Positions 11,428-15,841 of a DNA stretch of 59,849 nt are shown here, piece by piece. The translations under genes were made by a program, and so were the position numbers. The notes beneath the pieces were generated by a model. The model ran no database searches and was not told the DNA's origin. It saw only the letters and a program-made list of their open reading frames with translations. Every line of letters begins with the position of its first letter. The stretch's first letter is position 1. This DNA comes from an uncultured Erysipelotrichaceae bacterium (GTDB lineage: Bacteria > Bacillota_I > Bacilli_A > Erysipelotrichales > Erysipelotrichaceae). The DNA lies in contig CAMVGT010000008.1 in NCBI GenBank assembly GCA_947167125.1, forward strand, positions 1-59,849. The letters are read 5' to 3'.

Positions 11428-11453
11428 CAAAAGAAAACGGGCATCTGCCCGTT
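11428..11453 (-). terminator. Terminator of the sigma-like membrane protein gene
   Basis: AACGGGC/GCCCGTT with a 4-base loop and a TTCTTTT tail in the minus direction, 9 bases beyond the stop codon. Confidence 0.8.
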
Positions 11454-11461
11454 CTCATCAT

Positions 11462-12946
11462 TTACTGTTTCGGTGTATATGTGATCCAGGTTCCGTCACT
11501 CGGAATCCATCCGTTCTCGCTGATTCTGTACCATGTATATCCATCTGCTTCCGCAGTTTCATATACATCGTATGTTGTTTCAGCTGCAGCCAGATCAATA
11601 TATGCGAAATTGATACCTGCTCCGTCACGGATTGTCAGATCTGTAACATTTGTGTATGCCTGACCGATGACAGCTTCACCTTCCGGTGTAGGCTCCGGTG
11701 TGGGTTCCGGAGTAGGTGTCGGAGTCGGCGTAGGAGTCGGTGTGGGAGTAGGAGTTGCCTCCGGTGTCGGTGTCGGCGTTGTTTCAGGAGTCGGCGTTAC
11801 TGTCTCTGCCGGCTGACTGTCGCGGTTGAACAGCGACATGATATCATTGAATGTGTAGCCTTTAATACCGAAGAGGTAGAAAGCTCCGCCTGCCAGAGCG
11901 GCGATCAGCAGAAGCGGCAGGAACCATTTCAGGAAACCGCCCTTTTTCTTCTTTCTCGGTTTTTCATCATAATCATCATCGTCATCGTCGTCATCTTCTG
12001 CCGGATAGATGATCTGGTCCATGGACTCAACAACCTTTGTCGGTTCCGGGTCAGTTTCTTCCGGAATATCAAAGAACGGCTTCTTTTCTTCTTCCGGTTC
12101 TTCTTCGCTTTCCTGTTCAAAACGGATATCACCGAACAGATCGCCTTCTTCTTCCGGCTGCGCAGGTTCTTCAAAACTCAGATCTTCCGCATCATCTTCT
12201 GCCGGTTCTTCAAAGTCTGTGAAGTTCAGATCGATATCATCCGCATCCTGATCATCTTCAACTCTCTTTTCAGCTTCATCAAACAGTTCATCCATCGAAA
12301 GATCGACTTCGTCAAAAATATCGTCTTCCGGCTTGACGGGCTCTTCAATGGCAAGCTTCGGATTCACTTTGGATGCCAGTGAAAGAAGAGCGGATACAGA
12401 TGTATCGCCCTTGCCGAGAGACTGCTTGACAGAGGCGAGAACCTTTCTGGTGTCGTCCTTTGTGATGCCGAGCTTGGCGGAGATTTCATCCAGTGACATC
12501 AGATCGAAATAACGCAGTGCCGCAGCAGCTCTTTCGCCTGCAGGCAGAGAATCAAGAGCGTGCAGAATACGGACTTTGCACTCGTCCATATTCTCAGGCA
12601 GACGGATTCCTGTATCAGGAACTTCGTCCTTGTTTGTGTATTTAAGATCCGGGTCCTCATTCACTTCAGTCGGCACAGCATTCTGCAGAGCATTGTCTCT
12701 GACAATGTCTGTAATCCAGTCTGTGAAGTTTTCTGCTGTCTCAGCGCCGTCCAGATTTTTCAGGGCATGTCTCAGCGCTGCCTGTTCTGAACGCTTTGCC
12801 TGTTCCTTGTCACCGATATACAGTCTGGTGACAAAGTACATTTCAGCTGTATATGTTTTGAGAAGGGTCGCAATTGCATCGCGGTCTCCGTCAGCCGCGA
12901 GCACAGCCAGTTCCCGTAATTCGTTTTCCGTAGGTAAGTTTTGCAT
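11462..12946 (-). CDS. Membrane-tethered sigma-factor-like protein with extracellular SH3 domain
   Basis: 494 residues from the ATG at 12946, picked because GGGGAGAAA lies upstream and the likely -10 box at 12972-12977 excludes longer starts. Residues about 5-80 resemble ECF sigma region 2. Residues about 124-182 resemble region 4, with LPAGERAAAALRYFDLMSLD and an HTH in EISAKLGITKDDTRKVL. A long acidic linker and a KKKK cluster lead to a membrane helix near 337-360. Outside follow a Pro-Thr repeat stalk (about 379-425) and a C-terminal bacterial SH3 domain (about 434-490). This suggests a transmembrane regulator sensing the wall or a ligand. Whether it binds core RNA polymerase is unknown. 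Confidence 0.8.
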   Translation of the reverse strand: MQNLPTENELRELAVLAADGDRDAIATLLKTYTAEMYFVTRLYIGDKEQAKRSEQAALRHALKNLDGAETAENFTDWITDIVRDNALQNAVPTEVNEDPDLKYTNKDEVPDTGIRLPENMDECKVRILHALDSLPAGERAAAALRYFDLMSLDEISAKLGITKDDTRKVLASVKQSLGKGDTSVSALLSLASKVNPKLAIEEPVKPEDDIFDEVDLSMDELFDEAEKRVEDDQDADDIDLNFTDFEEPAEDDAEDLSFEEPAQPEEEGDLFGDIRFEQESEEEPEEEKKPFFDIPEETDPEPTKVVESMDQIIYPAEDDDDDDDDYDEKPRKKKKGGFLKWFLPLLLIAALAGGAFYLFGIKGYTFNDIMSLFNRDSQPAETVTPTPETTPTPTPEATPTPTPTPTPTPTPTPEPTPEPTPEGEAVIGQAYTNVTDLTIRDGAGINFAYIDLAAAETTYDVYETAEADGYTWYRISENGWIPSDGTWITYTPKQ

Positions 12947-12971
12947 AGTATTTCTCCCCATCGATATTTCC

Positions 12972-13001
12972 ATTATACGACAAAATGCCTTAATTTTTCA
13001 G
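12972..13001 (-). promoter_or_regulatory. Promoter of the sigma-like gene
   Basis: A perfect TATAAT at 12972-12977 on the minus strand, with a weak CTGAAA about 18 bp upstream. It gives a leader of roughly 18 bases that just includes the ribosome binding site. It overlaps the end of the UPF0210 gene, so the two genes are transcribed separately. Confidence 0.55.
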
Positions 13002-14351
13002 ACTTTGAATCGGTGACGGAATTCTGCCGCCTCTGTGCACCATAACTGCAGGGCTGACTGTCTTCAAAGGCATGACAGGTCCTTCTCCGAGCAATCCGCC
13101 GAATACCAGATGTTCTCCCGCTTTCTTTCCGATCGCAGGGATCAGACGGCATGCGGTGGTCTTGGAATTGATCATTCCGATTGCGGCTTCATCCGCAATA
13201 ATCGCAGACAGTGTTTCGGCTGTTGTGTCGCCCGGAACAATAATCATATCCAGTCCGACCGAGCACACAGCTGTCATTGCCTCAAGCTTTTCAATCGTCA
13301 GTGTTCCTGCTTCCGCGGCTGCGATCATTCCGGCGTCTTCGCTGACCGGAATAAATGCGCCTGAAAGTCCGCCTACAGAACTGGATGCCATGATGCCTCC
13401 CTTTTTCACTGCATCATTCAGCATCGCAAGACATGCGGTTGTGCCGGGGCCGCCGCACTGTTCAAGACCGATTTCTTCCAGAATCTGGGCCACAGAATCG
13501 CCTACAGCGGGCGTCGGTGCCAGGGAAAGGTCTACAATGCCGAACGGCACATTCAGCCTTCTGGAGGCTTCACGGCCTACCAGCTGGCCCATTCTGGTAA
13601 CCTTGAATGCGGTCCTCTTGATAATCTCCGCAATTTCATCCATGGATGCTTCAGGTCCTGCTTCGCGTACGGCGTTTCTGACAACACCCGGGCCTGATAC
13701 ACCGACATTGATGACGCAGTCAGGCTCAGAAATGCCATGGAACGCACCGGCCATGAACGGGTTGTCTTCCACTGCATTGCAGAAAACAACGAGCTTAGCA
13801 GCGCCGAAACAGTTATTGTCCGCGGTCAGCTCCGAGCATCTTCTGACAATCTGGCCCATTTTCTTAACGGCATCCATATTGATGCCGGCTTTGGTGGACC
13901 CGATATTCACTGATGAACAGACAATATCTGTACATGCAAGTGCTTCCGGAATGGACTCAATGAGAAGCCGGTCGCCTTCCGTCATACCCTTCTGCACAAG
14001 CGCGGAGTAGCCTCCGATAAAATTAACGCCCAGGTCTTTTCCTGCCCGGTCGAGGGTTTTTGCGTATTTTACGCAGTCGCCGCCGCTGACACTTGCCAGA
14101 AGCGAGATCGGAGTAACCGAAATACGGGCATTCACAATCGGAATTCCGTATTCTCTTGAAATATCCCCGGCTGTTTTCACAAGGTCCTTTGCCTTGTTCA
14201 TCAGCTTCTGATAAATCTTTTCGCAGGCGCGGTCAATGTCGCTGTCTGCGCAATCCATCAGTGAGATTCCCATCGTAACGGTACGGATATCGAGGCATTC
14301 TTCATCAATCATCCGGATCGTTTCGAGAATGTTATCTGAAGTACGTGTCAT
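12990..14351 (-). CDS. UPF0210 (PFL/DUF711) family protein
   Basis: 453 residues covering the whole family length, with the typical start [20 protein letters not shown] and the Gly-rich [20 protein letters not shown]. The family shares a fold with pyruvate formate-lyase-like proteins but has no proven reaction. It is regularly encoded next to an ACT-domain (UPF0237) protein, as here with an 11-base gap, so the two probably work together with the ACT protein as an amino-acid-sensing partner. It is soluble, with no signal peptide. Confidence 0.93.
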
Positions 14352-14647: not shown

Positions 14648-15841
14648 TTATTTTGTTTCAGACTGCAGGTCATCCAGCGAAAGACCGCAGTAATAGAGTT
14701 CCATCAGAAGATAATTCTTAACTTCCTTCATTTTTTCGACTGTTGAATCCTGGCATTCGCTTGTGGCGCGGTCTTTGCCGAATTCATATGTGCAGCTGCC
14801 CATGGAAATCAGATCTCCCTGCCAGCTGTATACATAGTTGATTGAGTAGTTTGAGTAGATAAATGTCTTGTTCGCAAAATCGATCGTATATGCCTCATTC
14901 TGATTGAATTTCATCTGAACGGCATCGCCCTCGATTTCCTCATAGCCCATTCTGCCGATCAGACGCTTCCTGAATGTCGCTGCTGTTGTCGCCTCCGGAC
15001 TGTCATCATAATCATCCCCGGTATCGATCTGACTTGTGTCGATCTCATCGGAAGATACATAGGCGCTCTGCTCTTTCTTCAGTTCATCTGAGATTGCAAT
15101 CTCGGTACTGTTCTGTGCAAACAGAGATACTTCCGAAGTGTAGGCCGCTTCAATTTCCTGTTCCTGATACGTAAAGGCTGTTTCTGCCGAAACATTCTCA
15201 CTGATGAGATAACCGTCAGAAGAGAAAGTATCCGTAACTGTCAGAGCTTTTACTTCCGCGCCGTCAAATTCGGTTACGCCATAGAAGTCATACCGGCTGC
15301 CAAAGAAGTCCTTACGGCTTTCCTCAGCGATTTCAATGACATAGATGTGATTGCCTTCCGTATCTTCTGAAGCCTTGATGGAAGAGATAATCTGCTGCGG
15401 GAATGCATAAGCTTCCAGCGGTACAAGCATCAGTTCCCTGACATTGTTCAGATTCATCTTTTCGTAATACGTGATTCCGTTGTAGCTGTTGTAAAGCGTA
15501 CCGTCATAGAAATACGCTTCCATCTGTGAATTAAGCCCGTTGGCATGAATGTTCTGTGTCAGATGAGCCGTTTCTGATTCATCCTGAACCTCCAGTACAC
15601 CATCCATCTGATACGAACTTAACGTATCGTCGGAAAAACGGAATGTATAGTCGCTCCGGATCCCGTAGCTGAGCGATGAAGCCTTTTCAGCACCGGCCAG
15701 ATCTTCACTGTAGAGCGTATAGGCATCTCCTTCGCGCGGTTTTGCCTGTTCTTCCGTTTCATCCGGCTTTGTATTTGTCTGACAGCCTGTAAGCAATAAA
15801 GCCGTCAGAAGCCATAATCCTGCTTTTTTCATAGCATTCAT
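14648..15841 (-). CDS. Hypothetical lipoprotein
   Basis: 397 residues with a lipoprotein signal: MKKAGLWLLTALLLTGC, lipidation Cys near residue 20. The mature part is acidic and Ser/Thr-rich with beta-strand character, including repeated tyrosine-rich segments such as YFYDGTLYNSYNGITYYEK, as seen in Firmicutes lipoproteins of the LppX/LolA-like kind. I cannot name the family. It lies 15 bases beyond the ACT gene's start in an operon-like line with the phosphatase gene upstream. ATG at codon 4 is an alternative start and neither has a strong ribosome binding site. Confidence 0.75.
   Translation of the reverse strand: MNAMKKAGLWLLTALLLTGCQTNTKPDETEEQAKPREGDAYTLYSEDLAGAEKASSLSYGIRSDYTFRFSDDTLSSYQMDGVLEVQDESETAHLTQNIHANGLNSQMEAYFYDGTLYNSYNGITYYEKMNLNNVRELMLVPLEAYAFPQQIISSIKASEDTEGNHIYVIEIAEESRKDFFGSRYDFYGVTEFDGAEVKALTVTDTFSSDGYLISENVSAETAFTYQEQEIEAAYTSEVSLFAQNSTEIAISDELKKEQSAYVSSDEIDTSQIDTGDDYDDSPEATTAATFRKRLIGRMGYEEIEGDAVQMKFNQNEAYTIDFANKTFIYSNYSINYVYSWQGDLISMGSCTYEFGKDRATSECQDSTVEKMKEVKNYLLMELYYCGLSLDDLQSETK

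Follow-up and report, generated by a model that had tools for sequence, protein, structure and literature searches.

A membrane protein conserved in one genus of Erysipelotrichaceae carries an ECF sigma-like domain with a changed polymerase-facing surface

We found that a single-chain membrane protein, encoded in a 59,849-nucleotide stretch of DNA from an uncultured Erysipelotrichaceae bacterium (contig CAMVGT010000008.1; hereafter, the window), carries a sigma2-sigma4 domain that is changed at most of the positions where a sigma factor would dock onto the beta-prime clamp of RNA polymerase. The domain is nevertheless under purifying selection and is not decaying. From comparisons of sequence, we moderately favour the interpretation that the protein is a membrane-tethered sigma mimic, in which the fold has been reused as a protein-binding domain and no longer serves as a polymerase subunit.

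The gene lies on the minus strand, as do all features of the window given positions below, in a single open frame of 503 amino acids at positions 11462–12973; the preliminary description had placed its end at 12977. The likelier start is at 12946 (Met10, giving 494 amino acids), since a GGGGAGA stretch lies just 5' of Met10 and the starts of the orthologs, judged from their upstream sequences, agree. On the 5' side are an ACT-type gene (a label from sequence only) and a DUF711 gene (12990–14351), the latter identified by its Pfam match (PF05167). A consensus scan returned a promoter-like CTGAAA-18-TATAAT at 12972–13001 (10/12 matches to consensus), which overlaps the end of the DUF711 gene, and a terminator-like hairpin 3' of the stop codon at 11433–11456; in these scans, the count of promoter-like patterns was not clearly above that in shuffled sequence, and the count of terminator-like hairpins was not above it. 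Further along the window, positions 14648–15841 encode a lipoprotein-like protein with no confident family match in profile scans.

A profile of the N-terminal part, applied at 1e-8, matched sequences in 119 of the 315 genomes of the order. Close relatives (2.4e-49 or better) were confined to 21 of these 315 genomes, all in the genus of the window. The family analyzed below comprises 20 of 21 strong profile matches, with one omitted that is cut at a contig start (L093). At six of the first eight ortholog loci viewed (L009–L016), the sigma-like gene directly follows DUF711; L011 and L012 are the exceptions. Across a collection of named organisms, a sigma-like gene was present at 4 of 80 DUF711 loci (L103, L104 from isolate NK3D112, L105, and L106), all in Erysipelotrichaceae, and was absent from the other 76, including three Solobacterium records. 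At two loci (L108 and L111), a methyltransferase gene directly follows DUF711. A diverged copy of the sigma-like gene (L189) is flanked by a lipoprotein-like gene on one side and a methyltransferase gene on the other; by eye, these two resemble genes near the window gene, including the lipoprotein-like gene described above.

The sigma-like part comprises a region 2-like domain (residues 16–101; 12671–12928) and a region 4-like domain (residues 129–188; 12410–12589), joined by a short linker with the motif Tyr112-x3-Asp116-Glu117 (12623–12640), each residue of which is present in 20/20 family members. Single-sequence profile matches are marginal: NCBIfam TIGR02937 matched residues 32–186 of the protein at 6.4e-10 (38.9 bits, below the cut-off of 42.9) and just passed at 43.1 bits in a six-frame search of the genome, Pfam Sigma70_r4_2 fell just below its cut-off (3.1e-5), and Pfam Sigma70_r2 gave no match in the window protein at E up to 1. 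A profile built from nine orthologs, however, matched solved ECF sigma factors over both regions (8z6g, 7.4e-14; SigW 5wuq, 8.4e-11), so the likeness exceeds chance. The AlphaFold2 model of residues 1–225 (pLDDT 77.1, pTM 0.74) had sigmaE as its top Foldseek match (4.1e-5). Taken separately, the sigma2-like domain aligned with 4lup (TMt 0.78, rmsd 1.5) and the sigma4-like domain with 2h27 (TMt 0.70–0.72), each with an E-value only near 0.1. Collectively, the profile search, the model, and the fold search place sigma2 and sigma4 folds in the window protein, as the preliminary description had read from the letters, and supply the comparison of a predicted structure with ECF sigma factors that it had called for. 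Among 11 relatives scanned, Sigma70_r4_2 was matched in nine; Sigma70_r2 was matched in one, versus 9/9 membrane-anchored ECFs.

C-terminal to the sigma-like domains, the chain continues with an acidic linker (residues 206–351; 11921–12358) in which 61 of 146 residues are acidic and 15 basic, a single membrane helix by hydropathy scan (residues 352–370; 11864–11920), a Pro-Thr stalk apparent from the sequence (residues ~385–434; 11672–11821), and an SH3-type domain of bacterial kind (residues ~435–503; 11465–11671). The linker, helix, and stalk were borne out as previously described, and the layout is conserved across the genus; exactly one hydrophobic helix was found in each of the 19 of 20 family members whose sequence covers the helix region. 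The SH3-type assignment was likewise supported. The Pfam SH3_3 profile was matched in 9 of 11 relatives scanned, and the isolated domain models as all-beta (pLDDT 91.9); no Pfam SH3 match was obtained in the window protein itself. Bacterial SH3b and cell-wall-targeting domains headed the list of fold matches, in which no E-value fell below 0.08 (0.09–0.3 for such folds), and lysostaphin SH3b with a peptidoglycan fragment (5leo) was among the leading ones. We infer that the SH3-type part lies outside the cell and that the wall is its probable ligand. In the window protein, a basic stretch that precedes the helix fits this orientation; several relatives have strongly acidic helix flanks in its place.

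Other proteins share this tail. Two of them carry the same helix, stalk, and SH3-type domain behind a zinc-ribbon-like N-terminus in place of the sigma domain (L018 493–2028; L019 961–1962), and the tail therefore seems modular. Another two combine the tail with a sigma2-like remnant and lack region 4 (L017 613–2217; L022 1027–2286). In L016/L078, L101, and L187, a sigma-like protein ends in a frame that stops just past the membrane helix, without an SH3 domain in frame.

Next, we examined the residues expected to face the polymerase. In a structural study of sigma32 (PMC10216364), D77, E81, I84, and M87 contact the beta-prime clamp, and the partner residues include R275, R278, and R281. By motif and spacing, these four residues correspond to positions 61, 65, 68, and 71 of the window protein, consistent with an ungapped alignment to AlgU there. 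The family was compared with 18 membrane-anchored ECFs, hand-picked from the retrieved matches, and nine soluble ECFs, namely seven of the eight shorter sigma factors of the same genome (L062 omitted) and two from other genomes, giving 27 comparators. Three copies (L190 1130–3697, L191 3052–5091, and L193 758–2071) and four duplicate loci (L028, L031, L095, and L099) were omitted; for nine diverged paralogs and two degenerate rows, separate counts were kept. Fisher tests on these residue counts ignore shared descent and were not used as evidence.

The family departs from the usual residues at three of the four clamp-contact positions, and the window protein, with R61, A65, and R68, does not have the clamp-contact residues of sigma32. 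An acidic residue at position 61 was found in 1/20 family members, versus 18/18 membrane-anchored and 9/9 soluble ECFs. Likewise, Asp, Glu, or Asn at position 65 was present in 5/20 members, compared with 15/18 membrane-anchored and 9/9 soluble ECFs (24/27 comparators). Position 68 is Arg or Lys in 17/20 members, versus 0/18 and 1/9, respectively. By contrast, position 71 is hydrophobic or aromatic in all 20, and Gln or Asn at the neighboring position 64 is kept in 14/20 (26/27 comparators). The RpoC of the genome keeps the arginine-rich clamp stretch (YRRVITRNNRLKKLL), which a basic residue on the sigma side should repel, and all seven of its own soluble ECFs examined have an acid at position 61. 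Among the diverged paralogs, four of nine have an acid at position 61 and three of nine have Arg or Lys at position 68; the change is therefore not uniform beyond the family. The changes within the family are shared by descent and may thus reflect only a small number of independent events.

The changed domain is constrained. Its dN/dS was 0.015–0.21 in the 9 scorable of 10 pairs, a rough estimate because several pairs are close to saturation at synonymous sites. It was lower than that of the linker in 8/8 comparable pairs, and lower than that of the SH3-type domain in 4/7 and higher in 3/7. The family also has conserved residues of its own: R50 in 20/20, L51 in 19/20 versus 0/27 comparators, and P101 in 16/20 versus 0/27.

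The residues facing DNA gave a mixed picture. In the recognition helix, position 178 is hydrophobic in 20/20 family members and 9/9 paralogs, and is Arg in 18/18 membrane-anchored ECFs. Since this position is Arg or Lys in only 5/9 soluble ECFs, its change is weak evidence when taken by itself. At position 100, where region 2 ends, a basic residue occurs in 1/20 members, 11/18 membrane-anchored ECFs, and 8/9 soluble ECFs. Two basic positions of the recognition-helix region are retained, position 176 in 14/20 and K183 in 20/20, and the family cannot be told apart from the membrane-anchored ECFs by the net charge of region 4. The substitutions suggest that the sigma-like domain may have lost DNA binding. 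The preliminary description had named the loss of both beta-prime- and promoter-contacting residues, together with an absence of polymerase binding, as the sign of a domain that only resembles sigma; about half of that picture is what we see, the clamp-contact residues being changed and the promoter-contact residues partly so.

To place the family, a maximum-likelihood tree of 58 sigma domains was built, with midpoint rooting only. The 20 family members and nine paralogs formed one branch (100/95), which, with the two degenerate rows, was nested among the membrane-anchored ECFs with the usual residues (96/92 and 96/93). These ECF-like proteins of Erysipelotrichales (L190–L200 and L094–L102) are thus the nearest relatives in the tree. 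They have a helix after the sigma part (one hydrophobic helix in 17/18 sequence pieces and two in the other), and many of them have the Tyr-x3-Asp-Glu linker residues in common with the family. Unlike the family, they retain the sigma residues examined. All nine that were scanned cleared the Pfam thresholds for both region 2 and region 4. WG repeats were above cut-off in three of these nine, and matches to SH3, NlpC/P60, and Ig-like domains were below cut-offs. Given this nesting, the polymerase face appears to have changed only after membrane anchoring had arisen.

The joining of a sensor and a sigma-like part in one chain, which the preliminary description had set apart from the usual separate anti-sigma factor, is real, and has precedents. 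According to a report on ECF52 (PMC5826349), SCO4117 of Streptomyces coelicolor joins an ECF sigma factor, a transmembrane region, a Pro-rich stretch, and a carbohydrate-binding domain in one chain; the same report mentions a zinc finger, proposes release by proteolysis, and reports the group only in Actinobacteria. The window protein resembles ECF52 in the order of membrane helix, Pro-rich stretch, and a binding domain that is predicted to be outside. It differs in its changed clamp-contact residues and in having an SH3-type domain, with no carbohydrate-binding match, where ECF52 has a carbohydrate-binding one. The window protein, which has one cysteine in its whole length, gave no Pfam match (E up to 1) to an ECF52-type zinc-finger (anti-sigma) domain after sigma4. 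IutY of Pseudomonas putida (ECF243) likewise unites a sigma factor and a membrane-spanning regulatory part in one protein; it is an active iron-starvation sigma factor with a fused anti-sigma part and is cut by Prc and RseP. ECF48 and ECF53 are among further described one-chain membrane ECFs. The layout is therefore of a known kind; the novelty lies in a membrane protein whose sigma domain has been altered while staying under constraint.

A different precedent is PhyR of Alphaproteobacteria, whose ECF sigma-like domain acts not as a sigma factor but as a sigma mimic that binds the anti-sigma factor NepR (PMC4598750). PhyR is controlled by a receiver domain, of which a Pfam scan of the window protein (E up to 1) showed no sign; the window protein has a membrane helix and an SH3-type domain instead. 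Word searches of one open-access library found no membrane-spanning sigma mimic.

The preliminary description had left three options: release of a sigma factor by proteolysis, a membrane-bound role in transcription, or reuse of the fold. The last is the best supported and the others less so, because three of four clamp-contact positions are changed family-wide while the domain remains under purifying selection. In the mimic reading, the lineage probably began with an ECF sigma factor that was already a single, membrane-anchored chain; the sigma2-sigma4 fold would have been kept, with the clamp-docking face and some of the promoter-contact face remodelled, yielding a protein-binding domain that has presumably lost polymerase binding. 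Outside, the Pro-Thr stalk would bear the SH3-type domain, probably wall-binding, and information on the state of the wall might pass by way of the helix and the acidic linker to the partner bound by the sigma-like domain. Among possible partners, an anti-sigma factor or some other protein that binds sigma factors is the likeliest by analogy with PhyR, a suggestion that we make tentatively. The protein could then be a transmembrane counterpart of PhyR, in which a wall-binding SH3-type domain outside controls the holding or release of such a partner inside; we regard this fuller scheme, too, as possible but doubtful.

The same data bear on the possibility that the protein is a true ECF sigma factor, kept inactive at the membrane until wall sensing by the SH3-type domain triggers its release through regulated proteolysis close to the helix. 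In favour, profile, model, and dN/dS indicate that both sigma domains are folded and conserved, and the membrane-anchored ECFs that lie closest in the tree have the usual residues. In most members, Q64 and basic 176 are retained, as is K183 in all, and some diverged paralogs keep the acid at 61. Two further points count against the mimic: TIGR02937 was just passed in the genome search, and position 71 stays hydrophobic. One-chain designs with proteolytic release are described as well, proposed for ECF52 and shown for IutY. Against this stand the three changed clamp-contact positions, two of them arginines that in the window protein would face an arginine-rich clamp, and the acid at 61 that every examined soluble ECF of the genome has. 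We consider a genuine sigma factor rather unlikely.

If instead the sigma4-like helix-turn-helix bound DNA, the protein would be a membrane-tethered regulator with no role as a polymerase subunit, and basic 176, invariant K183, and the frequent Sigma70_r4_2 matches among relatives would fit. The uniformly hydrophobic position 178 and the two same-tail relatives that entirely lack region 4 (L017 and L022) make this improbable. Those two relatives, with their worn-down sigma part, would in turn suit a protein that is mainly a wall anchor, with the SH3-type tail as the working part and the sigma-like domain as a structural remnant, as would the same tail on the zinc-ribbon-like proteins. We think this very unlikely too: the dN/dS of the sigma part is low, always below that of the linker and on either side of that of the SH3-type domain, and L016/L078 has the sigma part and helix without an SH3 domain in frame. 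A sigma mimic at the membrane thus remains our preferred reading.

On that reading, the family would make it possible to trace how a transcription-factor fold left transcription, in a series that runs from soluble ECFs, through membrane-anchored ECF-like proteins with the usual residues, to a membrane protein with a rebuilt polymerase face under purifying selection. Should the partner be an anti-sigma factor, the wall could signal to genes with neither a released sigma factor nor a two-component system, and if the transmembrane mimic is true, a whole sigma factor would have been turned into the output domain of a receptor. More generally, 'sigma factors' called by profile match need not be sigma factors.

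Membrane-anchored ECF-like genes also occur in tandem, four in L190 (G013:C60) and two in L191 (G013:C9), with nearly identical sigma parts and differing outside parts. Genomes of two genera, G124–G130 (g22) and G088 (g21), have many ECF-like frames of ~330–490 amino acids, with at least nine scored matches per genome; a first look gave 19–36 candidates in each g22 genome and 89 in G088. These frames are possibly large paralog families of membrane-anchored ECFs.
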